A DNA stretch of 32,350 bases, taken from Alphaproteobacteria bacterium. Its GTDB lineage: Bacteria > Pseudomonadota > Alphaproteobacteria > GCA-2731375. Shown here piece by piece: positions 1,868 through 12,420 of the stretch. A model generated the notes under the pieces. That model worked only from the letters and a program-made list of their open reading frames with translations, had not been told where the DNA came from and did no database searches. Numbering within the stretch: the stretch's first letter is position 1; each line of letters begins with the position of its first letter. A program made the position numbers and the translations under genes. Location: the NCBI GenBank assembly GCA_029936195.1, contig JAPYUH010000021.1:1-32350 (forward strand). Reading direction: 5' to 3'.

Positions 1868-2674
1868 ATGGATTATGAACTAATTCTGTTCGAACGGCGA
1901 GGGGAGCTGGGCGAGGTCGGATTAATCACCCTGAACCGGCCGGAAAAAATGAATGCCTGGACATATGATATGCGCGATGAGTTGCTGCATGCCATGGACC
2001 GGGTCAACAACGATCCCGACATGGGCGCCATGGTGATTACCGGTGCCGGGCGGGGCTTTTGTGCCGGTGCCGATATTGGCGCCATGTTCAAGACCCGTCT
2101 GGACGATGACGAACCGAAACGCCCCGAGACATCGGTCGATTGGGTCAAAGCAGTGCGCGAGGCCAAACCGATGATTGCCGCCGTCAACGGGGCTTGCATC
2201 GGCGTCGGCCTGACGCAAATCCTGTCCTGCGATTACATCATGGCCTCAGAAAAGGCCAAGTTCTCCTGCGCCTTTGTGAAAATGGGCGTGGTGACGGAAT
2301 TGGCCTCATCCTATTATCTTGTGCAACGCATGGGCTGGGGCAACGCCTCGGAAGTGGCCCTGACCGCGCGTATGATACCGGGCGAGGAGGCCGTGCAACT
2401 GGGTTTGGCCGATCGTCTGGTGGCCCACGATGACCTGGTCGGCGAGGCGGTGGCCCTGGCTGAGATGATGGCGCAAAATCCCAGCCGGCAAATGCGCATG
2501 GTCAAGGAGCTGTTTACCCAAAACGGCAGCGATCAGGACCTCGACGCGGTTTTGGCGCGGGAAAAGGCGGCATTGGATTTGTCCTACAAATCCGTCGAGC
2601 ACAAAGAGGCGGTGAACGCTTTCCTCGAAAAACGTAAACCTGACTTCCGGAAAGTGGCGGGGCAGCAAACATGA
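1868..2674 (+). CDS. enoyl-CoA hydratase/isomerase family protein (crotonase fold)
   Basis: Crotonase-superfamily enzyme of 268 residues, likely hydrating or isomerising an enoyl-CoA during beta-oxidation-type degradation. CoA/oxyanion-hole segments are seen at GRGFCAGADI (61-70) and NGACIGVG (107-114). Glu144 in VVTELASS is the conserved acid of the one-glutamate hydratase/isomerase type; the site of the first catalytic Glu of rat crotonase is not a Glu here, so the exact reaction may differ from ECH1. I chose the ATG at 1868 because GGAGG (1856-1860) precedes it with ideal spacing; the open frame upstream is not coding-like. It begins a tight operon: its TGA overlaps the next ATG (ATGA at 2671-2674). 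Confidence 0.93.
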   Translation: MDYELILFERRGELGEVGLITLNRPEKMNAWTYDMRDELLHAMDRVNNDPDMGAMVITGAGRGFCAGADIGAMFKTRLDDDEPKRPETSVDWVKAVREAKPMIAAVNGACIGVGLTQILSCDYIMASEKAKFSCAFVKMGVVTELASSYYLVQRMGWGNASEVALTARMIPGEEAVQLGLADRLVAHDDLVGEAVALAEMMAQNPSRQMRMVKELFTQNGSDQDLDAVLAREKAALDLSYKSVEHKEAVNAFLEKRKPDFRKVAGQQT

Positions 2675-3291
2675 GTGGATTAAAGATTTTTGGTGTCGCC
2701 CCCACGCGCACCATGCGGACCTTGTGGATGGCCAACGAACTAGCCCTGGATTACGAGTTGGTCCCCGTCTCACCCCGCGATGGCGGCACCACGTCGCCGG
2801 AATATCTGGCGGTGAACCCAAATGCCAGCGTGCCGGCGATCCAGGACGGTGATACGACCCTGTGGGAATCCCTGGCCATCAATCTCTACCTGGCCAAAAA
2901 ACATGGTGGTGATTTGGCGCCGCGGGATGATGGCGAACATGGTTTGGCCCTGCAATGGAGTTTTTGGGTCATGGGCAACGTGGAAGGCCGGGCCATGACG
3001 CTTCTGCGCAACCGGGTGTTCTTGCCGGAAGATCAGCGTGACGGGGCGGCCGCGGCGACGGCTTCGGCGGCGGAAGCCGAATTGGCGGCTCCCTTGGCGG
3101 TTTTGGGCGCTGCCTTGGCCGATCGGGACTACCTGCTTGGCGATCGTTTCACCGTGGCCGACCTGAACGTGGCCGCCGTCATGTCATGGTTGAAGATGAC
3201 CAAGGTTGATTTGTCCGCCTACGGCCATGTTGCCGATTGGCTTGGCCGCTGCCTGGGCCGCAAGGCTTATGTGGCGGCGCGGGCGGCCTAG
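2671..3291 (+). CDS. glutathione S-transferase family protein
   Basis: Cytosolic GST, 206 residues, the usual size. The N-terminal thioredoxin-like domain includes the VNPNASVPAIQDGDTTLWES stretch with cis-Pro55 and the glutathione-binding Glu67-Ser68 pair. The C-terminal all-helical domain carries the YLLGDRFTVADLNV motif typical of GSTs. The first-strand region (VAPTRTMRTLW) offers Thr/Arg rather than an obvious Cys or Ser catalytic residue, so the class is uncertain. It is translationally coupled to the enoyl-CoA hydratase through ATGA and is followed by an acyl-CoA dehydrogenase, suggesting a role in detoxifying or processing an intermediate of the same pathway; this is inference from context. 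Confidence 0.92.
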   Translation: MSGLKIFGVAPTRTMRTLWMANELALDYELVPVSPRDGGTTSPEYLAVNPNASVPAIQDGDTTLWESLAINLYLAKKHGGDLAPRDDGEHGLALQWSFWVMGNVEGRAMTLLRNRVFLPEDQRDGAAAATASAAEAELAAPLAVLGAALADRDYLLGDRFTVADLNVAAVMSWLKMTKVDLSAYGHVADWLGRCLGRKAYVAARAA

Positions 3292-3321
3292 AATACAATT
3301 TACGAAGATTAGGAATGCTTG

Positions 3322-4500
3322 ATGATTGATTTTGCCTTACCCGATGAACTGGTCGAATTGCGGGACCGGGTCACCGCCTTTATCCGCGACGAGATCATGC
3401 CCTTCGAAGCGGACCAGCGGCAGGAATACCATGGTCCCACCGAAGACCTGCGCCATGAACTGGTGGCCAAGGCCAAGACGGCCGGTTTGCTCTCTCCCCA
3501 CGGCCCCACGGAATTCGGCGGTCTGGGCCTGAACCATGTGGGCATGGCCGTTGTATTCGAGGCGGCGGGTTATTCCACCCTCGGTCCCCTGGCCCTGAAC
3601 ATTCAGGCACCTGACGAGGGCAACACAAACCTGCTGGCCCAGGTCGCCTCGCAAGAGCAAAAGGAGCGCTGGCTGGCCCCCTTGGTCGCCGGCAAGGTGC
3701 GTTCCGTCTTTGCCATGACGGAACCTGACGGCGGTGCCGGCTCCGACCCTTCGCTGATGCGCACGGCGGCGCGGCCCGATGGGGACGACTATGTCATCAA
3801 TGGCCGCAAATGGCTGATTACCGGCATGCCCGGCGCATCGTTCCAGATCCTCATGGCCAAAACCCTAGACCAAGACGGTAATGATCTGGGCGCGACGATG
3901 TTCATGATGGACAATGACACACCGGGGATCGAAATTGTCCGCGTGCTCAACACCATGGACAGCAATTCGCCCGGCGGCCATGCGGAGGTGGCCTACAACG
4001 ATGTCCGTGTCCCGGCCCACCAGATCCTGGGCGAGGCGGGCAAGGGTTTTCGCTATGCCCAGGTGCGCCTGACGCCGGCGCGCATGACCCATTGCATGCG
4101 CTGGCTGGGCGCCGCCGTCCGGGCCCATGACATCGCCGTCGACTACGCCAAGCACCGCCAGGCCTTTGGCAAGGTGCTGGGCGAACATGAAGGCGTGGGC
4201 TTCATGCTGGCGGAAAACCAGATGGACCTGCATTTCTGCCGCCTGGCCATCTGGCAGGCCTGCTGGCTTTTGGATAATGGCGAGCAGGCCCGCGACGAAA
4301 GCTCCATGGCCAAGGTGCGTTGTTCGGAAGCCCTCTCGAACGTGGTTGACCGCTCGCTGCAAATTCTGGGCGGCCGGGGCATTACGGACGATACGGTAGT
4401 GGAGCGGATCTATCGCGATATCCGGGCCTTCCGTATTTACGACGGCCCCTCGGAAGTGCACCGCTGGGCCCTGGCCCGCAATATCATGAAGCGGAATTGA
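3322..4500 (+). CDS. acyl-CoA dehydrogenase, ACAD10/11-like
   Basis: FAD-dependent acyl-CoA dehydrogenase of 392 residues that introduces a 2,3-double bond into an acyl-CoA and passes electrons to ETF. The FAD/substrate segment FAMTEPDGGAGSDPS and the C-terminal ILGGRGITDDT are intact. At the catalytic loop, where MCAD has YEGTSQ, this protein has YDGPSEVHRW; Asp374 would replace the catalytic Glu, as in the ACAD10/ACAD11 branch, whose members act on unusual substrates such as hydroxy- or branched acyl-CoAs (family knowledge). The ATG at 3322 is preferred over TTG at 3319 because AGGA (3311-3314) is well placed. It is third in the operon, ending 1 bp before the next ATG. Confidence 0.95.
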   Translation: MIDFALPDELVELRDRVTAFIRDEIMPFEADQRQEYHGPTEDLRHELVAKAKTAGLLSPHGPTEFGGLGLNHVGMAVVFEAAGYSTLGPLALNIQAPDEGNTNLLAQVASQEQKERWLAPLVAGKVRSVFAMTEPDGGAGSDPSLMRTAARPDGDDYVINGRKWLITGMPGASFQILMAKTLDQDGNDLGATMFMMDNDTPGIEIVRVLNTMDSNSPGGHAEVAYNDVRVPAHQILGEAGKGFRYAQVRLTPARMTHCMRWLGAAVRAHDIAVDYAKHRQAFGKVLGEHEGVGFMLAENQMDLHFCRLAIWQACWLLDNGEQARDESSMAKVRCSEALSNVVDRSLQILGGRGITDDTVVERIYRDIRAFRIYDGPSEVHRWALARNIMKRN

Positions 4501-4501
4501 T

Positions 4502-5584
4502 ATGTTGAGCGAGATCAAGGTCGGCGGCGAACCATTGCCCATCCGGGAAAGTTTGGTGCGGGAAATGGAGGTGGCCTGGAAGCGCCTGGCCGGACCCGGT
4601 ACCTGGTGGACGGGGGCGGAGCGTTTGGCCATCGCGGCGGAGGCACGCCATGCCACGAATTGTAGGCTGTGCCAGCGCCGCAAGGAGGCACTGTCGCCCT
4701 ACACCCACGATGGCGAACACGATGCCATGTGCGAACTTGCGCCGGCGGCGGTCGAGGCGATCCACCGTCTGGTTACCGATGCGGGACGGATCACCGAAAA
4801 ATGGGTGCGCTCGCTGGATTTGGATGAAACCAAGTATGTGGAAATTATCGGCGTTCTTGCGGTCCTGACCGGCCTGGATACCCTGCACGGCGCCCTGGGC
4901 CTGCCCTTGACGCAATTGCCCGCCGCGATGCCGGGGGAGCCGGTGCGCCAGAAACCCCAAGGCGCGAAACGTAATCTGGCCTGGGTGGAGACCGTGGCGC
5001 CCGAAGATGTCGGGGCCGGAGAGCCAAACCCCTATCCCCTACATGGTGACAAGAACATCCATCGCGGAATCAGCCTGGTGCCCCAGGAGGTGATTAATTT
5101 CTTTGATCTGGATGTCGAACTGTACATGAAGGATGACGAAATCCGGGATTTCGATACGGAATACCGGGCCATTTCCCATGCCCAGATCGAACTGATCGCG
5201 GGGCGAACCTCGGCCCTTGCCGGGTGTTTTTACTGAACCACCTCCCATTCAGTTCTGCTCCGTGCGAGCGGCGAACATTTAGGACAGGACTACGATCTCA
5301 ACGCGGTGATGTCGGACCAGGGCCTGGTGGATAGTATTCCCAACGGCAAGGTTCTGATGGATCTGGTCGAGGCAGTTTTTGCTAACGCGGATTTGGCGGA
5401 GGCCCGCCAAGCGGTGCGCGACGATCTAGGCGATGCCGCCTTTGTCGATGCCTGCGGCACCATCGCCTCGTTCAGCGCCGTGGTGAAGATCGCCGATGGC
5501 GCCGGCATCCCGTTGGAGGATTACAAGGAAGAAGTTAGCCGTGAAATTCGCCAAGAATTGTCCATCAATGAGTTCGTGACCTAA
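4502..5584 (+). CDS. AhpD-like (carboxymuconolactone decarboxylase/alkylhydroperoxidase-type) selenoprotein with in-frame UGA = Sec245
   Basis: Read as one 360-residue selenoprotein. The frame runs open from ATG 4502 to TGA 5234-5236, then continues in the same frame with clear coding character to TAA 5582-5584. Reading the UGA as selenocysteine gives Glu230-x11-Cys242-Phe-Tyr-Sec245-Thr-Thr-Ser-His249, which reproduces the AhpD active-site spacing E-x11-C-x-x-C-x-x-x-H with Sec in place of the peroxidatic Cys. A SECIS-like hairpin follows at 5252-5276. The N-terminal half holds a second CxxC (Cys54, Cys57 in NCRLCQRR). The likely role is thiol-dependent reduction of a peroxide or another electrophile; substrate and reductant are unknown. 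It is last in the operon with hydratase, GST and acyl-CoA dehydrogenase, 1 bp after the dehydrogenase stop. Conventional annotation would end it at residue 244 and miss or split off the rest. Function requires SelA/SelB/SelC/SelD elsewhere in the genome. Confidence 0.88.
5252..5276 (+). promoter_or_regulatory. candidate bacterial SECIS element (selenocysteine insertion hairpin)
   Basis: In the mRNA just after UGA 5234-5236, GUUC (5252-5255) pairs with GAAC (5273-5276) and UGCUC (5256-5260) pairs with GAGCG (5266-5270). This leaves a two-base bulge at 5271-5272 and a five-base apical loop CGUGC (5261-5265). The loop has G in its second position followed by U, and starts 24 nt after the UGA. 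These features meet the published bacterial SECIS rules (short apical loop, G among the first two loop bases, about 16-37 nt from the UGA). It lies within the coding sequence, as bacterial SECIS elements do, and would bind SelB. Confidence 0.8.
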
Positions 5585-5982
5585 GGCTGAAACGGAAACC
5601 GGTCACCCGAACAGCGGTGGATGACGGCGTATTCGACGCATTCCCCGCGCAGGCGGTAATTATTCTCTGACCCAGGCGCAGACGACAGGTCGAGAAAAGC
5701 CTGGTGGCTGGGATACCAGGCGGCCAGAATTTCATCCAGTTTTTGCTCTCCCACCGCCTGTCCGTGGACCGCGTGGCGCCACAGGATCCCGGGCCCGACC
5801 ACGGGCAGAAATTTTTCCAAACCGGTGATGCAATCATGATAAACGCCGCCGCCGGGAAATCCAGTGCCCGGCTTGTAGCGGTTCAAGTTCAACATGAGCA
5901 CGGGGCCGTCGTTGCCGCTGTCCGCGACAGCCTGGATAATCGCCGCCTCGTCTTCATTCCGTGTCAGTTTCGTGGGCAGCAT
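5581..5982 (-). CDS. DUF1330-like small protein (ferredoxin-like alpha/beta barrel type)
   Basis: A protein of 133 residues from the chosen start. The pattern LMLNLNRYKPG ... LEKFLPVVGPGILWRHAVHG ... WPS-like WYPSHQAFLDL resembles DUF1330/EthD-like dimeric alpha-beta barrel proteins, several of which sit in catabolic operons; no reaction can be assigned. The ATG at 5982 is preferred because AGGA (complement of 5992-5995) lies nine bases upstream; in-frame ATGs at 5991 and 6018 are alternatives. It is divergent from the acyl-CoA synthetase gene. Its TAG overlaps the TAA of the selenoprotein gene on the opposite strand (CTAA at 5581-5584). Confidence 0.75.
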   Translation of the reverse strand: MLPTKLTRNEDEAAIIQAVADSGNDGPVLMLNLNRYKPGTGFPGGGVYHDCITGLEKFLPVVGPGILWRHAVHGQAVGEQKLDEILAAWYPSHQAFLDLSSAPGSENNYRLRGECVEYAVIHRCSGDRFPFQP

Positions 5983-6073
5983 GTCTGGCATTCCTTTTTC
6001 AGAACTAGAATTGACCACGCCGTTGTATCTGGTGGACTATACGCAAAACACGCATCAGCAGGGAAATGAGTGC

Positions 6074-7699
6074 ATGGAGTGGTACGAAAAGCGCCTGATC
6101 GGTGATCTGGCGGACGCGGCGGCGGCAAGGTTCGGCGCGCGGGAAGGCTTGGTTTTCGAAAATTCGCGTTATAGCTTCGCCGAAGTTGCGGCGGAGGTTG
6201 ACCGCGCCGCCAAGGCATTGATGGCGCAAGGCGTCGAACGGGGCGATCACGTGGCGCTGTGGTTGAACAACAGCGCCGATTGGATTTTTATTAGTTTTGC
6301 CCTGGCCAAGGTTGGCGCGGTACAGGTGCCCATCAACACCCGCTTCCGCACCGCCGATCTGGAATATGTGGTGGGCCAGTCTGACAGCACCATGTTGATC
6401 ACCCATGACCATTCCGGCCCCATCGATTATCTGGACATGGTGCGCCAAGTCATCACCCTGCCGCAATCAGACGACAACGTTGCGGACGACCGGTTCCCCG
6501 AACTGCGCCGGGTGATCATTCTGGGCAGTGGCGAATATGTGGGCACGGCATCCTGGAAAACCAGCCTAAGCGCGGGCGAGACGATTACGGATGCCGCCCT
6601 GGCGGGCCGGGCCGCCTCGGTCGATCCCGATGATGCTTTTCTGATCATGTATACCTCCGGCACCACCGGCTTCCCCAAGGGCGCCATGCACAGCCACAAA
6701 TTGATCCGCAACAACGAGGAGCGGGCCAATCGCATGGCCTATACGGTCAATGACGTGATCCTGAACTACCTGCCCTTGTTCCATGCCTTCTCCTATTCCG
6801 AGGCGGCGGTGATGTCGTTTTTGAGCGGCGCCAAACAGATCATTACAGAAACCTTTGATGCCGGGGAAAGCCTGGATTTGATCGAGGCCGAGGGGGTCAG
6901 CATCGTGCACGGCTTCGAAGCGCATATGAAAGGCCTGACGGAGGCGCAGGAGGCCAAGGCGCGCAATCTATCAACCCTGCGCACGGGCATCTTTGCCGCC
7001 GGCATGCACAGCGCCACGCCGGTAATCCGCCGTGGTGCCAGGGCCCTGGCGCCGCTGAAGAATTTGTCGGGCTTCGGCATGACCGAAGTATGGCTGGGCG
7101 TGGCCCTGAATTCCCTGGACGACAGTGAAGAGCGGCGCTGCGAAACCTCCGGCTATCCTTGCTTAGGCTATGAAATCCGGGTTGTTGATCCCGATACCGG
7201 GGCCGATCAAGCGGTGGGCGTGCCCGGCGAATTACTGGTCCGCGGCTACAGCCTGATGCTGGGATATTACAAAAAGCCCGAGGAGACGGCTGCGAGTTAC
7301 GACGCCGACGGCTGGTTCCACACCGGTGACACGGCGGAGTGGCTCGACGGCGGCTACATGCGGTTCCTGGGCCGCTACAAGGACATGCTCAAGGTCGGCG
7401 GCGAGAATGTCGACCCCATGGAGACCGAGGGGTTCTTGCTGGAACACCCAGCAGTCCACCAGATCGCCATCGTCGGCTATCCGGACGAAAAGCTGTCGGA
7501 AGTCCCCGTTGCCTTTGTCGAGCGGGCGCCGGGCACCAATATTTCCGCCCAGGCGGTCATTGATCTTTGCCGGGGCAAATTCGCCTCCTTCAAAATTCCC
7601 CGGCATGTGTTTTTCATCGACGTGTTTCCCATGACCGCTTCCGGCAAGATCCGCAAGGTAGAGCTGCGCGAGGAGGCCTTGCGCCTGCTGGCGGAGTGA
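6074..7699 (+). CDS. AMP-dependent acyl-CoA synthetase/ligase
   Basis: ANL-superfamily ligase, 541 residues, activating a carboxylic acid to its CoA thioester through an acyl-adenylate. Motifs include the P-loop YTSGTTGFPKG (from about residue 193), GFGMTEVW (A5-type motif), DADGWFHTGD (A7-like) and the C-terminal GKIRKVELR with the adenylation Lys. The length and motif set fit fatty- or aromatic-acid CoA ligases. The ATG at 6074 (MEWYEKRLIGDL) is chosen because the frame upstream overlaps the divergent DUF1330 gene and GGGA at 6061-6064 is suitably placed. It is followed by a BVMO gene after a 113-bp gap holding a perfect palindrome, so the two may be regulated separately. Confidence 0.95.
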   Translation: MEWYEKRLIGDLADAAAARFGAREGLVFENSRYSFAEVAAEVDRAAKALMAQGVERGDHVALWLNNSADWIFISFALAKVGAVQVPINTRFRTADLEYVVGQSDSTMLITHDHSGPIDYLDMVRQVITLPQSDDNVADDRFPELRRVIILGSGEYVGTASWKTSLSAGETITDAALAGRAASVDPDDAFLIMYTSGTTGFPKGAMHSHKLIRNNEERANRMAYTVNDVILNYLPLFHAFSYSEAAVMSFLSGAKQIITETFDAGESLDLIEAEGVSIVHGFEAHMKGLTEAQEAKARNLSTLRTGIFAAGMHSATPVIRRGARALAPLKNLSGFGMTEVWLGVALNSLDDSEERRCETSGYPCLGYEIRVVDPDTGADQAVGVPGELLVRGYSLMLGYYKKPEETAASYDADGWFHTGDTAEWLDGGYMRFLGRYKDMLKVGGENVDPMETEGFLLEHPAVHQIAIVGYPDEKLSEVPVAFVERAPGTNISAQAVIDLCRGKFASFKIPRHVFFIDVFPMTASGKIRKVELREEALRLLAE

Positions 7700-7761
7700 A
7701 TAATCGGCGGCCTGGGATAAACGAGCTTCCTGGCCGTGTCATTAACGCACATCATTGATTG

Positions 7762-7785
7762 ATTATCTAACATTTGTTAGATAAT
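7762..7785. promoter_or_regulatory. perfect 24-bp palindrome, candidate repressor operator
   Basis: The arms ATTATCTAACA (7762-7772) and TGTTAGATAAT (7775-7785) are exact reverse complements, separated by TT. It is AT-rich within GC-rich DNA, lies 28 bp before the BVMO start and has no T-run after it, so it looks like a dimeric regulator site (TetR or MarR type) rather than a terminator. The regulator is not identified; a MarR gene lies 6 kb downstream, but its own upstream palindrome is different. Confidence 0.65.
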
Positions 7786-7812
7786 TCCCCGACCCTTTTT
7801 CATGACCTATGA

Positions 7813-9438
7813 ATGGCCCACTCACGCATGTCTGAAGCACAGGAATTTGACGTCATTATTGTCGGCGCCGGCATGTCCGGTATGTATCAGCTGCATCTGC
7901 TGCGCGGGCTCGGCTATTCCGTACGGGTGTTCGAGGCGGGGACGGGGGTTGGCGGAACCTGGTATTGGAACCGCTACCCCGGCGCCCGATTTGATTCCGA
8001 GAGCTACAGCTACGGCTATTCCTTTTCCGAAGAAGTCCTGCGGGAATGGAGCTGGAGCGAACATTTCTCGGCCCAGCCCGAAACCCTGCGGTATCTGAAT
8101 TATATCGCCGACAAGTTTGATCTGCGCACGGATATTCAGTTCGAGGCGCGGGTGGCCTCCGCCATATTTGATGATGCGGGCAATGCCTGGGATATCACCA
8201 TGGAAGACGGCAGCCGGGCCCGTGCGCAATTTCTAATTACCGCCATCGGTCCTCTGTCGACGCCGGTGATGCCAAAAATCAATGGCATCGAGGATTTTCA
8301 AGGCGACTATTTTCACACCGGGCAATGGCCCCATGAGCCGGTTGATTTCACCGGCAAACGGGTAGCGGTGATCGGTACCGGCGCCACGGGTGTGCAGACC
8401 ATCCAGGAAGTGGCCAAGACCGTCGGGCATCTAACCGTGTTCCAGCGCAATCCCAATTACTGCGCACCCCTGCTCAACAGTCCCATCGATGACGAGGCCC
8501 AGGCCAGGATCAAGGCCAGCTATGACGAAATTTTTGCCCAATGCAACAGCACCCATAGCGGCTTTCTCCATGATGCCGACCCGCGCCTTGCCCTCGAAGT
8601 TTCGGACGAGGAGCGCAAGGCGTTCTATGAACAGCGTTACGGCGAACCGGGCTTCGGCATCTGGATGGGCAATTTCCGCGATATCTTTGTGGATCAGGGC
8701 GCCAACGACACCATCAGCGAATTTGTCCGGGAAAAAATCCGCCAGCGGGTCAAGGACCCGGCGGTGGCGGAAAAACTGATGCCCCGCAACCATGGCTTCG
8801 GCACCCGCCGCGTGCCATTGGAAACCGGGTACTACGAGGTCTACAACCAGGACAACGTCGTGTTGGTGGACATCAAGGACACCCCCATCGAAAAAATCAC
8901 GGCGACGGGTTTGCGTTGCGGCGGTGTCGAGCATGAATTCGATATCATCATCTACGCGACCGGGTTTGACGCGGTCACGGGGGGATTTGACAAGATCGAT
9001 ATTCGCGGCGTGGACGGTCTGCGACTGAAGGATAAATGGGGGCAGGGGCCCAGAACATATCTGGGCCTGCAAATCGAAGGCTTCCCCAATATGCTGACCC
9101 TGGTCGGGCCCCACAATGCGGCATCCTTTTGCAATATTCCCCGCTGCATCGAACAGAATGTGGAATGGGTGGCGGACCTGTTGGCCTACATCAAGGACCA
9201 TGACATCAAGCGCATCGTACCGACCCTGGCGGCCGAAGACGAATGGACCGAGCATGTCTACGATGTCGGCTCCAAGTTGTTGTTCACCAAGGTTGATAGC
9301 TGGTTCACCGGCATCAACCGCAATGTCGAGGGTAAGACCAAGCGCACTTTTTTGCTTTATGCGGGCGGCGCCCCGGCATACCGGGAAAAATGTGACGAGG
9401 TGGCGGCCAACGACTACGAGGGTTTCGTGCTGCAATAG
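7813..9438 (+). CDS. Baeyer-Villiger monooxygenase, cyclohexanone monooxygenase-like
   Basis: Class B flavoprotein monooxygenase of 541 residues that inserts an oxygen next to a ketone, giving an ester or lactone with FAD and NADPH. The FAD loop GAGMSGMYQL lies near the N-terminus, the type I BVMO fingerprint FxGxxxHTxxW(P) at FQGDYFHTGQWP (162-173), the NADPH loop VIGTGATGVQ follows, and IYATGFDAVTGGF near the C-terminus matches the cyclohexanone monooxygenase branch. The ATG at 7813 is taken; ATG 7828 (MSEAQEFDVIIVGAG) is an equally reasonable start and neither has a strong Shine-Dalgarno. The candidate operator at 7762-7785 lies directly upstream. With the CoA ligase and acyl-CoA dehydrogenases nearby, it suggests cyclic ketone or terpenoid breakdown; the substrate is inferred only broadly. 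Confidence 0.95.
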   Translation: MAHSRMSEAQEFDVIIVGAGMSGMYQLHLLRGLGYSVRVFEAGTGVGGTWYWNRYPGARFDSESYSYGYSFSEEVLREWSWSEHFSAQPETLRYLNYIADKFDLRTDIQFEARVASAIFDDAGNAWDITMEDGSRARAQFLITAIGPLSTPVMPKINGIEDFQGDYFHTGQWPHEPVDFTGKRVAVIGTGATGVQTIQEVAKTVGHLTVFQRNPNYCAPLLNSPIDDEAQARIKASYDEIFAQCNSTHSGFLHDADPRLALEVSDEERKAFYEQRYGEPGFGIWMGNFRDIFVDQGANDTISEFVREKIRQRVKDPAVAEKLMPRNHGFGTRRVPLETGYYEVYNQDNVVLVDIKDTPIEKITATGLRCGGVEHEFDIIIYATGFDAVTGGFDKIDIRGVDGLRLKDKWGQGPRTYLGLQIEGFPNMLTLVGPHNAASFCNIPRCIEQNVEWVADLLAYIKDHDIKRIVPTLAAEDEWTEHVYDVGSKLLFTKVDSWFTGINRNVEGKTKRTFLLYAGGAPAYREKCDEVAANDYEGFVLQ

Positions 9439-9504
9439 GGCGCCGGGCGCTGTATGTTGGGTGGCAACCGACAAGAAAAATGAATTTGCGGAGGACCTTG
9501 CAAT

Positions 9505-10608
9505 ATGGTGAAGACACCAATTTCAGCCGACTCACATATTACCGAGCCACCCAATTGTTATATTGACCATATCGATCCCAGCTTTCGTGATCGTGCGCCT
9601 CATTTGGTCAACGATGAAAAGTACGGCGATGTCTATGTCATCGAAGGCATGGAAAAAACCATTCCCATCGGTTTGGTGGCCGCGGCCGGCAAGGATCCGC
9701 GCACCCTGCGCATGAGCGGCGGAAAATTCGATGAACTGCACCGCAGTGGCTGGGACGGGACATTGCGCGCGGCGGACCAAGATCTCGATGGCATCTGTGC
9801 CGAAATCATCTATCCCTCGGTTGGCATGGTTTTGTGCAATCACCCCGATTTCGAATACAAGCAAGCCTGCATGACGGCCTATAACCGCTGGCTGCAGACT
9901 TATTGCGAGGCCGCGCCCAACCGCCTGTTTGGCATGGCGCAATTGGCCATGGCCTCGGTCGAGGGGGGCATCGCGGAATTGCGCCAGGCCAAGGAGATGG
10001 GCTTTCGCGGCGTCATGATGCCCGGCAACCCCCAGCAAGCGGACTATGACCATGCCGATTATGACCCGTTCTACGAGGCGGCGGTGGATCTCGGGCTGCC
10101 GCTGTCCTTTCATATTCTGACTTCCAACACCGACAAGATCGGCGCCATGCGCGGGCCGCGCATCAACGGTTTTTCCACCATCATTCGGGGTTGTCAGGAC
10201 ATCATCGGCATGTTCATTTTCGGCGGTGTCTTCCAGCGCCATCCCGATTTGAAGCTGGTCTGCGTCGAGGCCGACGCGGGCTGGGCGCCTCATTACATGT
10301 ACCGCATGGATCACGCCTACAATCATCACCGCTTTTGGATGAAATGCGACGAGATGGAGCGGCTGCCCAGCGCGTACTTCAAGGAGAATGTCTACATGAC
10401 ATTCCAAGATGATTGGATTGCTTTCAAGTTCAAGGATGAATGCAACATCCGCCGCCTGATGTGGGCCAATGATTTCCCTCATTCGGATGCCACATGGCCG
10501 CGCAGTCAGGAATTGCTGGCGGAACACACCGCGCATATGACCCAGCAGGAGAAAGACTGGGTCCTGCATGACAACGTGGCCGAATTGTACGGCCTGAACG
10601 TGGCGTAA
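9505..10608 (+). CDS. amidohydrolase family 2 protein (metal-dependent hydrolase/decarboxylase-type TIM barrel)
   Basis: A TIM-barrel Amidohydrolase_2 protein of 367 residues. Features are the N-terminal DSHITEP metal-site motif, FHI in the middle (LPLSFHILTSN), VCVEADAGWAPHYMYRMD, and LMWANDFPHSDATWP near the C-terminus with the conserved metal-binding Asp. Relatives include ACMSD-type decarboxylases and many uncharacterised hydrolases found beside BVMO or CoA-ligase genes, so the exact reaction is open. GGAGG at 9490-9494 supports the ATG at 9505. It follows the BVMO by 66 bp on the same strand and probably acts in the same pathway, for example on a ring-opened or lactone product (inference). 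Confidence 0.9.
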   Translation: MVKTPISADSHITEPPNCYIDHIDPSFRDRAPHLVNDEKYGDVYVIEGMEKTIPIGLVAAAGKDPRTLRMSGGKFDELHRSGWDGTLRAADQDLDGICAEIIYPSVGMVLCNHPDFEYKQACMTAYNRWLQTYCEAAPNRLFGMAQLAMASVEGGIAELRQAKEMGFRGVMMPGNPQQADYDHADYDPFYEAAVDLGLPLSFHILTSNTDKIGAMRGPRINGFSTIIRGCQDIIGMFIFGGVFQRHPDLKLVCVEADAGWAPHYMYRMDHAYNHHRFWMKCDEMERLPSAYFKENVYMTFQDDWIAFKFKDECNIRRLMWANDFPHSDATWPRSQELLAEHTAHMTQQEKDWVLHDNVAELYGLNVA

Positions 10609-10618
10609 CCGTCTTTCC

Positions 10619-10704
10619 GTCATCCCCGGCCATTGACCCAGGGGTCCAGGGGCATAATCGCTGAAATTGTCGCTCTGGATTGCCGGGTCAAGCCCGACAA
10701 TGAC
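10619..10704. repeat. imperfect palindromic intergenic repeat (REP/MITE-like)
   Basis: An 86-bp element with termini GTCAT...ATGAC. Its left part (GTCATCCCCGGCCATTGACC) is imperfectly inverted relative to the right part, which reads GGATTGCCGGGTCAAGCCC before its terminal ATGAC. This is the style of short dispersed palindromes found between genes in many alphaproteobacteria (GTCAT-type elements). It lies just after the amidohydrolase stop and before the Shine-Dalgarno of the next gene; the open frame running into it from the deacylase is not genuine coding sequence. It may act as an mRNA-stabilising stem between the two genes. Confidence 0.6.
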
Positions 10705-10734
10705 TTCAAAAACAACCCTTTGAGGGAAAACAAG

Positions 10735-12420
10735 ATGTATGATCTGAAAATCACCAATGGTTCGATCATTGACGGCACCGGCGCGCCGGCTGTTTCGGGT
10801 GATCTAGGCATCAAGGACGGCAAGGTTGTTGCCCTGGGCGATGCGCCCGATGCGGCCAGCCGGGAAATTGATGCCGAGGGCCAGGTGGTTTGCCCCGGCT
10901 TCGTGGATATCCACACCCATTATGATGCGCAAATCCTGTGGGACCGTAATCTGACCATCTCTCCCTGGCACGGCGTGACCACGGCGGTGGTTGGCAATTG
11001 CGGCTTCGGCGTGGCGCCGACCAAGGCGGAACATCGCGAGATGATCATGCGCACCCTGGAAAAGGTGGAAGGCATGAGCGTCGCCGCCCTGCAGGCGGGG
11101 CTGGGCGAGGACTGGCCGTTTGAAACCTTTCGCGAATACCTCGATGCCGTCGATAATGTGGGCCCGGCCATCAATGTCGGCGTCCTGTACGGCCATACGC
11201 CCCTGCGCACCTACGTCATGGGCGAAGACGCGACGGAGCGGGTAGCGACGGACCACGAAGTGGCCCGGATGTGCGCCCTGCTGTCAGATGGCATCAAGGC
11301 CGGAGCCCTGGGTTTCGGTACCTCGAAGGCCTCCACCCATGTGGGTTATGAAGGCCGTCCCGTGCCCAGCCGGGCAGCTGGCATGGATGAAATCCATGCT
11401 CTATGTGATGTTTTGGGCGATTTGAACAAGGGCGTGATCCAGGCCACTGTCGGCCGGGAATTGTTTTTGGACGAGTTCGAACAAATTGCCATCCGCACCG
11501 GGCGGCCGATCACCTGGACGGCGCTGCTGGCCGGCTTGTCCCTGGGCAAGGGCGGGCACGAGGAACAACTGGTCCAATCCCGGGAGCTGGCGGCGCGGGG
11601 TTTGAAAATCAGCCCGCAGGTCACGCCGCGGCCCCTGAATTTCGAATATCAGTTCAGAGAGCCCTTTGTTTTCGAAGCCATATCCATGTTCAAACCGGTC
11701 TCGGCCGCCGATTTTGACGGCAAGTGCCGCATCTATCAGGATCCGGATTTCCGCAACGCCTTCAAGGAACGCATGAAGAGCATCCGGCCGTCATTCCAAA
11801 GCTCCTTCGCCAAGACCGTGGTCTCGCAATATGATCCCGATCCCGAACTATGCGAGCGGCTGCTGGTGGACATCGCCGCTGAACGCAGCGTGGACCCCAT
11901 CGACCTGGCCCTGGATCTCTCCTTGGATACCAATCTCGAAGCGCGCTTCCGCATGCCCGTGGCCAACCATGACGAGGACGAGGTGGAACCGCTGTTGAAG
12001 AGCGATTTTACCGTGCTGGGACTGTCGGATGCCGGCGCGCACGCTTCGCAATTATGCGATGCCTGTCAGCCCACGCATTTCCTTAAACGTTGGGTGCGTG
12101 AAAAAGAAGCTTTCAGCCTGGAAGAAGCAATCCGCATGCTGACCACGCGCACGGCGGAGGTCATGGGCATCACGGACAGGGGCCGCCTCGGCATTGGCAT
12201 GCCGGCCGATGTGGTGGTGTTTGATCCCGCCACGGTCAGCGACGGCCCGTTGCAGCGGGTGCATGACTTCCCCGCCGGCGCCGATCGCCTGATCAGCGAA
12301 GCCACGGGCATCTCCAATGTGATCGTCAACGGCACGGTCATTCGCGATCACGGCGAGGATGCCGTCCAAGCCAACGCTACCCTGCCGGGCCGGTTGCTGC
12401 GTGGTGGCGCGGCCGCATAG
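10735..12420 (+). CDS. N-acyl-D-amino-acid deacylase-type amidohydrolase (Amidohydrolase_3 family)
   Basis: A metal-dependent amidohydrolase of 561 residues related to D-aminoacylase and dihydroorotase-like enzymes. An N-terminal beta-sandwich strand set (KITNGSIIDGTGAP) is followed by HTHYD with His60 and His62, VVGNCGFGVAP carrying the metal-bridging Cys region, SDAGAHAS with the catalytic Asp, and the C-terminal GMPADVVVFDPATV beta-sandwich typical of the family. The ATG at 10735 (MYDLKITNG) is preceded by GAGGG at 10722-10726. The open frame extends upstream to 10633 but that part lies in the palindromic repeat. The family name does not fix the substrate: genomic relatives beside BVMO genes may hydrolyse other cyclic amides or esters. 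Confidence 0.93.
   Translation: MYDLKITNGSIIDGTGAPAVSGDLGIKDGKVVALGDAPDAASREIDAEGQVVCPGFVDIHTHYDAQILWDRNLTISPWHGVTTAVVGNCGFGVAPTKAEHREMIMRTLEKVEGMSVAALQAGLGEDWPFETFREYLDAVDNVGPAINVGVLYGHTPLRTYVMGEDATERVATDHEVARMCALLSDGIKAGALGFGTSKASTHVGYEGRPVPSRAAGMDEIHALCDVLGDLNKGVIQATVGRELFLDEFEQIAIRTGRPITWTALLAGLSLGKGGHEEQLVQSRELAARGLKISPQVTPRPLNFEYQFREPFVFEAISMFKPVSAADFDGKCRIYQDPDFRNAFKERMKSIRPSFQSSFAKTVVSQYDPDPELCERLLVDIAAERSVDPIDLALDLSLDTNLEARFRMPVANHDEDEVEPLLKSDFTVLGLSDAGAHASQLCDACQPTHFLKRWVREKEAFSLEEAIRMLTTRTAEVMGITDRGRLGIGMPADVVVFDPATVSDGPLQRVHDFPAGADRLISEATGISNVIVNGTVIRDHGEDAVQANATLPGRLLRGGAAA

Follow-up and report, generated by a model that had tools for sequence, protein, structure and literature searches.

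A short conserved stem-loop as the very probable SECIS element of an AhpD-related selenoprotein gene in an uncultivated alphaproteobacterium

We analyzed a 32,350-nucleotide stretch of DNA (the window) from an uncultivated alphaproteobacterium, in which an apparent nonsense codon very probably encodes selenocysteine. Judged by the sequence evidence, the hairpin that follows this codon is very probably a genuine bacterial SECIS element in a known selenoprotein family. We hold with high confidence that this apical hairpin (5255-5271) is bound by SelB and has the UGA at 5234-5236 decoded as selenocysteine 245 (Sec245) of an AhpD-related selenoprotein. Instead of the two-part stem proposed in a preliminary description of this DNA, the element comprises only a short apical stem-loop (4 to 6 bp). 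The conservation of the TGA, that of the hairpin at synonymous sites, the presence of the selenocysteine machinery and the spacing of the active-site residues were all computed here. From what is established for the SelB/SECIS pathway, the hairpin, with G5262 in its loop and U or G next to it, would be bound during translation by the C-terminal domain of SelB, and SelB carrying Sec-tRNA-Sec(UCA) would allow the UGA to be decoded as selenocysteine without termination. Homology further suggests that Sec245 and C242 would form a CxxU redox pair, with Sec245 second, in an AhpD-type active site (E230, C242, Y244, U245, H249), where Sec245 would presumably act as the nucleophile, in either a thiol/selenol peroxidase reaction or a disulfide exchange. 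Because the apparent nonsense codon very probably encodes selenocysteine, the gene should be annotated as a single 360-residue protein and not as a 244-residue fragment.

Table 1. Coordinates of the features in the window
Feature	Position	Strand	Basis
AhpD-related selenoprotein reading frame (predicted), complete	4502..5584	+	Translation with TGA = U; NF041238 match over residues 14-359
UGA, very probable selenocysteine 245 codon	5234..5236	+	C242-F-Y-U245-T-T-S-H249; common to family members over the cut-off; second-Cys position of CxxC in solved AhpD-like proteins
N-terminal CxxC, C54-R-L-C57	4661..4672	+	Family alignment: both Cys invariant in 64/64 covering rows
Very probable SECIS apical stem-loop, CUGCUC-CGUGC-GAGCGG	5255..5271	+	RNAalifold, 71 homologs; codon-resampling control
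Apical loop CGUGC, with invariant G5262 and U or G at 5263 throughout	5261..5265	+	Loop pentamers, 70 homologs; bSECIS consensus (PMC13188914)
Full hairpin of the preliminary description	5252..5276	+	Folds in silico in this sequence with lower stem 5252-5255/5273-5276, which is not conserved

Reading frame and family of the gene

The UGA lies in frame inside a continuous reading frame, whose product has 360 aa when TGA245 is read as selenocysteine and which ends at a TAA (5582-5584). The product carries a CxxU motif at the TGA (CFYUTTSH, with a G before C242). When the read-through protein was compared to the NCBIfam model NF041238, it scored 428.8 bits (cut-off, 175) and covered model positions 1 to 356 of 357. 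This family of alkylhydroperoxidase-related (seleno)proteins, AhpD_rel_CFYUT, corresponds to "hypothetical protein 1", a CxxU selenoprotein from the Sargasso Sea metagenome, in a 2026 review (PMC13188914). The Sargasso Sea survey (2005) had predicted a SECIS element for it and listed some cysteine homologs (PMC1088965). We searched for NF041238 genes in the order (15 near relatives) and in 385 genomes of the class, using the cut-off of 175 bits. About 70 distinct alphaproteobacterial genes exceeded it, each with exactly one in-frame TGA, located at the CxxU codon in every sequence inspected. Whereas the 2005 survey included some cysteine homologs, every member in the sampled genomes had the TGA, and cysteine members of the family were found neither in 399 genomes of the phylum nor in the plasmid collection. 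Our gene shares with the family the full-length match over the cut-off, the CxxU motif, the in-frame TGA and a SECIS element downstream of it, and we saw no essential difference. The element is a real but ordinary one, sitting in an already catalogued bacterial selenoprotein family.

These data bear on the possibility of a true stop codon or a nonsense mutation at the TGA, leaving a pseudogene or two separate ORFs, with a hairpin that folds by chance. The hairpin alone is indeed no more stable than chance, but the TGA is common to about 70 homologs across many alphaproteobacterial families, protein conservation runs about 115 residues past it, dN is below dS downstream of it, and selB was present in all carriers of the class sample. 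We consider the probability of a genuine stop negligible.

The source genome harbors three NF041238 paralogs, the two further copies being located at G000:C114:14570-15628 and G000:C483:1955-3016, the latter with a CGGGU loop. In another genome, two NF041238 selenoprotein genes (L071 and L098; G309:C9:214157-216428) form a direct tandem. Below the NF041238 cut-off, a weaker AhpD-like match (L075; G041:C141:202-594) contains an in-frame TGA as well, here within C..U...H, and possibly represents another AhpD-type selenoprotein family. In the window, an acyl-CoA dehydrogenase gene lies directly upstream of the selenoprotein gene (stop at 4500, start at 4502), and the region 2671-12420 forms a cluster of degradation type (GST, AMP-ligase, FMO/BVMO-like monooxygenase and two amidohydrolases). 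The acyl-CoA dehydrogenase gene is kept beside the selenoprotein gene in close relatives only, and the other paralogs do not have these neighbors.

Conservation of the apical stem-loop

We aligned the codons following the TGA in 71 non-identical genes (70 rows in one analysis, where two genes on one locus collapse). Codon +8 was CTC in all 71 leucines, although CTC makes up 17% of the leucine codons elsewhere in these genes. Ancestry alone does not account for this, since the leucine codon +21 varied over five codons in the same sequences (CTC/CTT/CTG/TTG/TTA, 20/19/14/9/3). Similarly, codon +9 was CGT for 60 of the 71 arginines, compared to 12% elsewhere, and the serine at +11 was always encoded by AGY and never by TCN. 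Codon +10 specified Ala, Glu, Gly, Val, Met or Leu, and its third base was always G. Together, codons +8 to +11 supply the pairs C5260-G5266, U5259-A5267, C5258-G5268 and G5257-C5269, and the two invariant codons, CTC and NNG, contribute their pairing bases at wobble positions.

These four pairs (5257-5260/5266-5269) are the conserved core of the stem. They were formed in 97.5% of the alignment cells, compared to 41% (sd, 4%) when synonymous codons were resampled at background usage, and none of 1,000 resamplings reached the observed value. The result was unchanged in 44 representatives below 80% identity. The core was complete in 64 of 70 genes; its outermost pair was replaced by C-U in 6 of 71, a few deep homologs. 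The outer pairs 5256-5270 and 5255-5271 were weaker, with a slight excess only over the codon null. As expected for a bacterial SECIS element, the structure was conserved in the selenocysteine homologs and absent from the cysteine homologs: in 25 CxxC stretches of AhpD-like proteins without the TGA, 42% of the cells were paired, and the four pairs were complete in a single one. The pairing looked for in an alignment of homologs was therefore found. However, with core pairs this close to invariance, the support comes from synonymous constraint and not from compensatory covariation.

We also considered whether the codon bias at +8 to +11 could reflect protein conservation and shared ancestry with no RNA structure involved. 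At the protein level, the segment LLRASG is well conserved, and the sequences are related to one another, but the bias resides at synonymous sites. Leu +21 and Thr +1 are variable in these genes. Moreover, codon +10 changes its residue and keeps a G facing the wobble C that is invariant in codon +8, and the cysteine homologs have no excess pairing. An origin in protein conservation is consequently very unlikely.

The loop is in good agreement with the earlier proposal that it carries a G at position 2 followed by a U, as in SelB-binding elements: G5262 was present in 70 of 70 homologs, with U (59) or G (11) as the next base. Likewise, we confirmed that 24 nt (5237-5260) separate the UGA from the CGUGC loop; the distance to the start of the stem drawn in the preliminary description is 15 nt. 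With its 5- to 6-bp stem (5255-5260/5266-5271), the element falls within the bSECIS constraints (loop of 3 to 9 nt, stem of 4 to 16 bp, G[G/U], spacing of 16 to 37). It shares with the bacterial SECIS consensus (PMC13188914) the 5-nt loop, the upper stem of 4 to 6 bp, the loop G in second position with U (or G) after it and the 24-nt spacing. However, it is short and moderately stable, loop bases N1/N2 (C, C) are unpaired, and a conserved lower stem is missing. Additionally, the pattern TGAAC-N15-25-CTCCGKGNGAG matched the 4.6-Mb genome at three places, which are precisely the three NF041238 paralogs, and had no match with the reversed control.

One generalization, which we put forward tentatively and regard as somewhat doubtful, is that the NF041238 family, with no cysteine version among its roughly 70 alphaproteobacterial members, is essentially selenocysteine-only and relies on a minimal SECIS element, a 4- to 6-bp apical stem-loop carried by the codon series L(CTC)-R-x(NNG)-S(AGY) without a conserved lower helix. 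If so, the residues shortly after selenocysteine would be constrained jointly by SelB and by the enzyme.

Folding in single sequences and competing hairpins

The hairpin originally proposed for 5252-5276 (GUUCUGCUCCGUGCGAGCGGCGAAC) comprised a four-pair lower stem, a two-base bulge, a five-pair upper stem and the CGUGC loop, all of which can be drawn on this sequence (GUUC UGCUC CGUGC GAGCG GC GAAC). It was the minimum free energy (MFE) structure of 5245-5285 and 5250-5280, the stretches that a ribosome would leave clear (-8.8 and -8.4 kcal/mol; P about 0.9). The isolated 25-mer preferred, by 0.4 kcal/mol (-7.3 versus -6.9), a 6-bp hairpin without the bulge (5255-5271). The bSECIS limit is -7.5 kcal/mol, to be compared with the -7.3 of the 25-mer and the values obtained with short flanks.

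Across the homologs, the lower stem (5252-5255/5273-5276) was paired in 35 to 38% of the cells, which is the level of the codon null (37%), and was complete in 2 of 71. The bulge (5271-5272) was not conserved either. The upper part of the proposed hairpin is thus conserved, but its lower stem and two-base bulge are not. We find it unlikely that the full two-part hairpin is the functional element in this gene: its being the MFE structure of the ribosome-accessible stretches speaks for it, but pairing of the lower stem at null level and the preference of the 25-mer for the unbulged form speak against it. The four-pair lower stem is probably incidental; it may stabilize this particular mRNA and is no family feature. 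An alternative lower extension (5253-5273, 5252-5274) was likewise rejected as not conserved.

Folding of the longest stretch, 5234-5300, which starts at the UGA, gave a different MFE structure (-11.4). This fold includes another hairpin, CCGU-GCGA-GCGG (5260-5271), with a GNRA tetraloop and no exposed loop GU, and its pairs also exceeded the codon null (86% versus 53%), because its bases are shared with the constrained codons. However, it was complete in 43 of 70 genes, compared to the 64 for the SECIS core, it loses one pair in genes with CGG or AGG at +9, and it leaves the absence of A at the third base of codon +10 unexplained. Furthermore, the mean ensemble probability over the family was 0.01 for the GNRA hairpin and 0.80 for the SECIS pair. 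Family pairing and ensemble probability thus led us to reject it, and we regard the GNRA hairpin as a most improbable functional fold.

The isolated SECIS hairpin itself has only moderate stability (-7.3 to -8.8 kcal/mol) and is no outlier in this GC-rich sequence. Compared to chance, single-sequence folding showed no excess stability (z = +0.70 for 5234-5300, -0.23 and -0.83 for the shorter stretches), and an equally or more stable fold followed 59% of the 967 TGA triplets counted over both strands of the window. For 9% of these TGAs, a hairpin with five or more base pairs and GU in its loop lay at 16 to 37 nt, and an Rfam search of the window gave no match. With such folds this common, the hairpin alone is no proof of selenocysteine, and the earlier statement that it raises this reading above a nonsense mutation by itself does not hold. 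The broader claim, that a SECIS-like element reads the UGA as selenocysteine, stands on other evidence, namely, the TGA in all members found, the conservation at synonymous sites, the cysteine homologs without the hairpin and the full selenocysteine machinery. For bacterial SECIS elements, single-sequence folding is poor evidence; the constraint on synonymous codons across homologs defines the element sharply and here trims it to its conserved apical part.

Predicted active site and selenocysteine machinery

In the alignment of 70 rows, E230, C242, residue 245 and H249 were invariant. Together with Y244, they are spaced like the proton-relay residues of AhpD, Glu118-Cys130-His132-Cys133-His137, whose middle position is a Tyr in PA0269 (PMC3141380). 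The solved relatives 3c1l and 6k40 align over the active-site region and have their second cysteine at the selenocysteine position. The spacing Glu-x11-Cys-x-(Tyr/His)-Cys/Sec-x3-His is hence shared with AhpD and peroxidase-related proteins (PA0269, 3c1l, 6k40 and Mycobacterium tuberculosis AhpD; PMC3141380). Unlike these, our protein has selenocysteine for the second cysteine and about 200 extra N-terminal residues with their own conserved CxxC. The Pfam CMD match was weak (19.5 bits; cut-off, 23). Profile comparison (probability, 47%; E, 2e-4) gave suggestive but weak evidence that the N-terminal half is a degenerate AhpD repeat. An AlphaFold model built from seven sequences was unusable (pLDDT, 41.9). 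By homology, the protein would have a peroxidase or disulfide-exchange role.

The source genome encodes selA, selB, selC and selD: selB (424.5 bits) and selA (578 bits) lie on one contig, and the tRNA-Sec has the anticodon TCA (UCA). In the 385-genome class sample, selB was detected in all 27 genomes with an NF041238 gene and in 54 overall (hypergeometric P of about 1e-26, a value that ignores phylogeny). In six genomes, the NF041238 gene was located within a few kilobases of selB (G021:C741, G198:C80, G291:C50, G368:C22, G104:C73 and G136:C19), which suggests linkage with the selenocysteine machinery.

The selD gene of the source genome (L100; G000:C265:909-1835) also contains an in-frame TGA, at about L100:939-941 (GGG-U-GCK), followed by a strong 8-bp SECIS-like hairpin with a CGUGCU loop (z = -2.5). 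The CGUG loop is thus common to two unrelated genes of this genome. A second SelD (L101:262-2529; G000:C456), encoded without an in-frame TGA, makes up the C-terminal portion of a protein of 755 aa; the N-terminal portion appears similar to an NADH dehydrogenase-type flavoprotein. This protein resembles the Ndh-SelD fusions that have reportedly been found in marine metagenomes.
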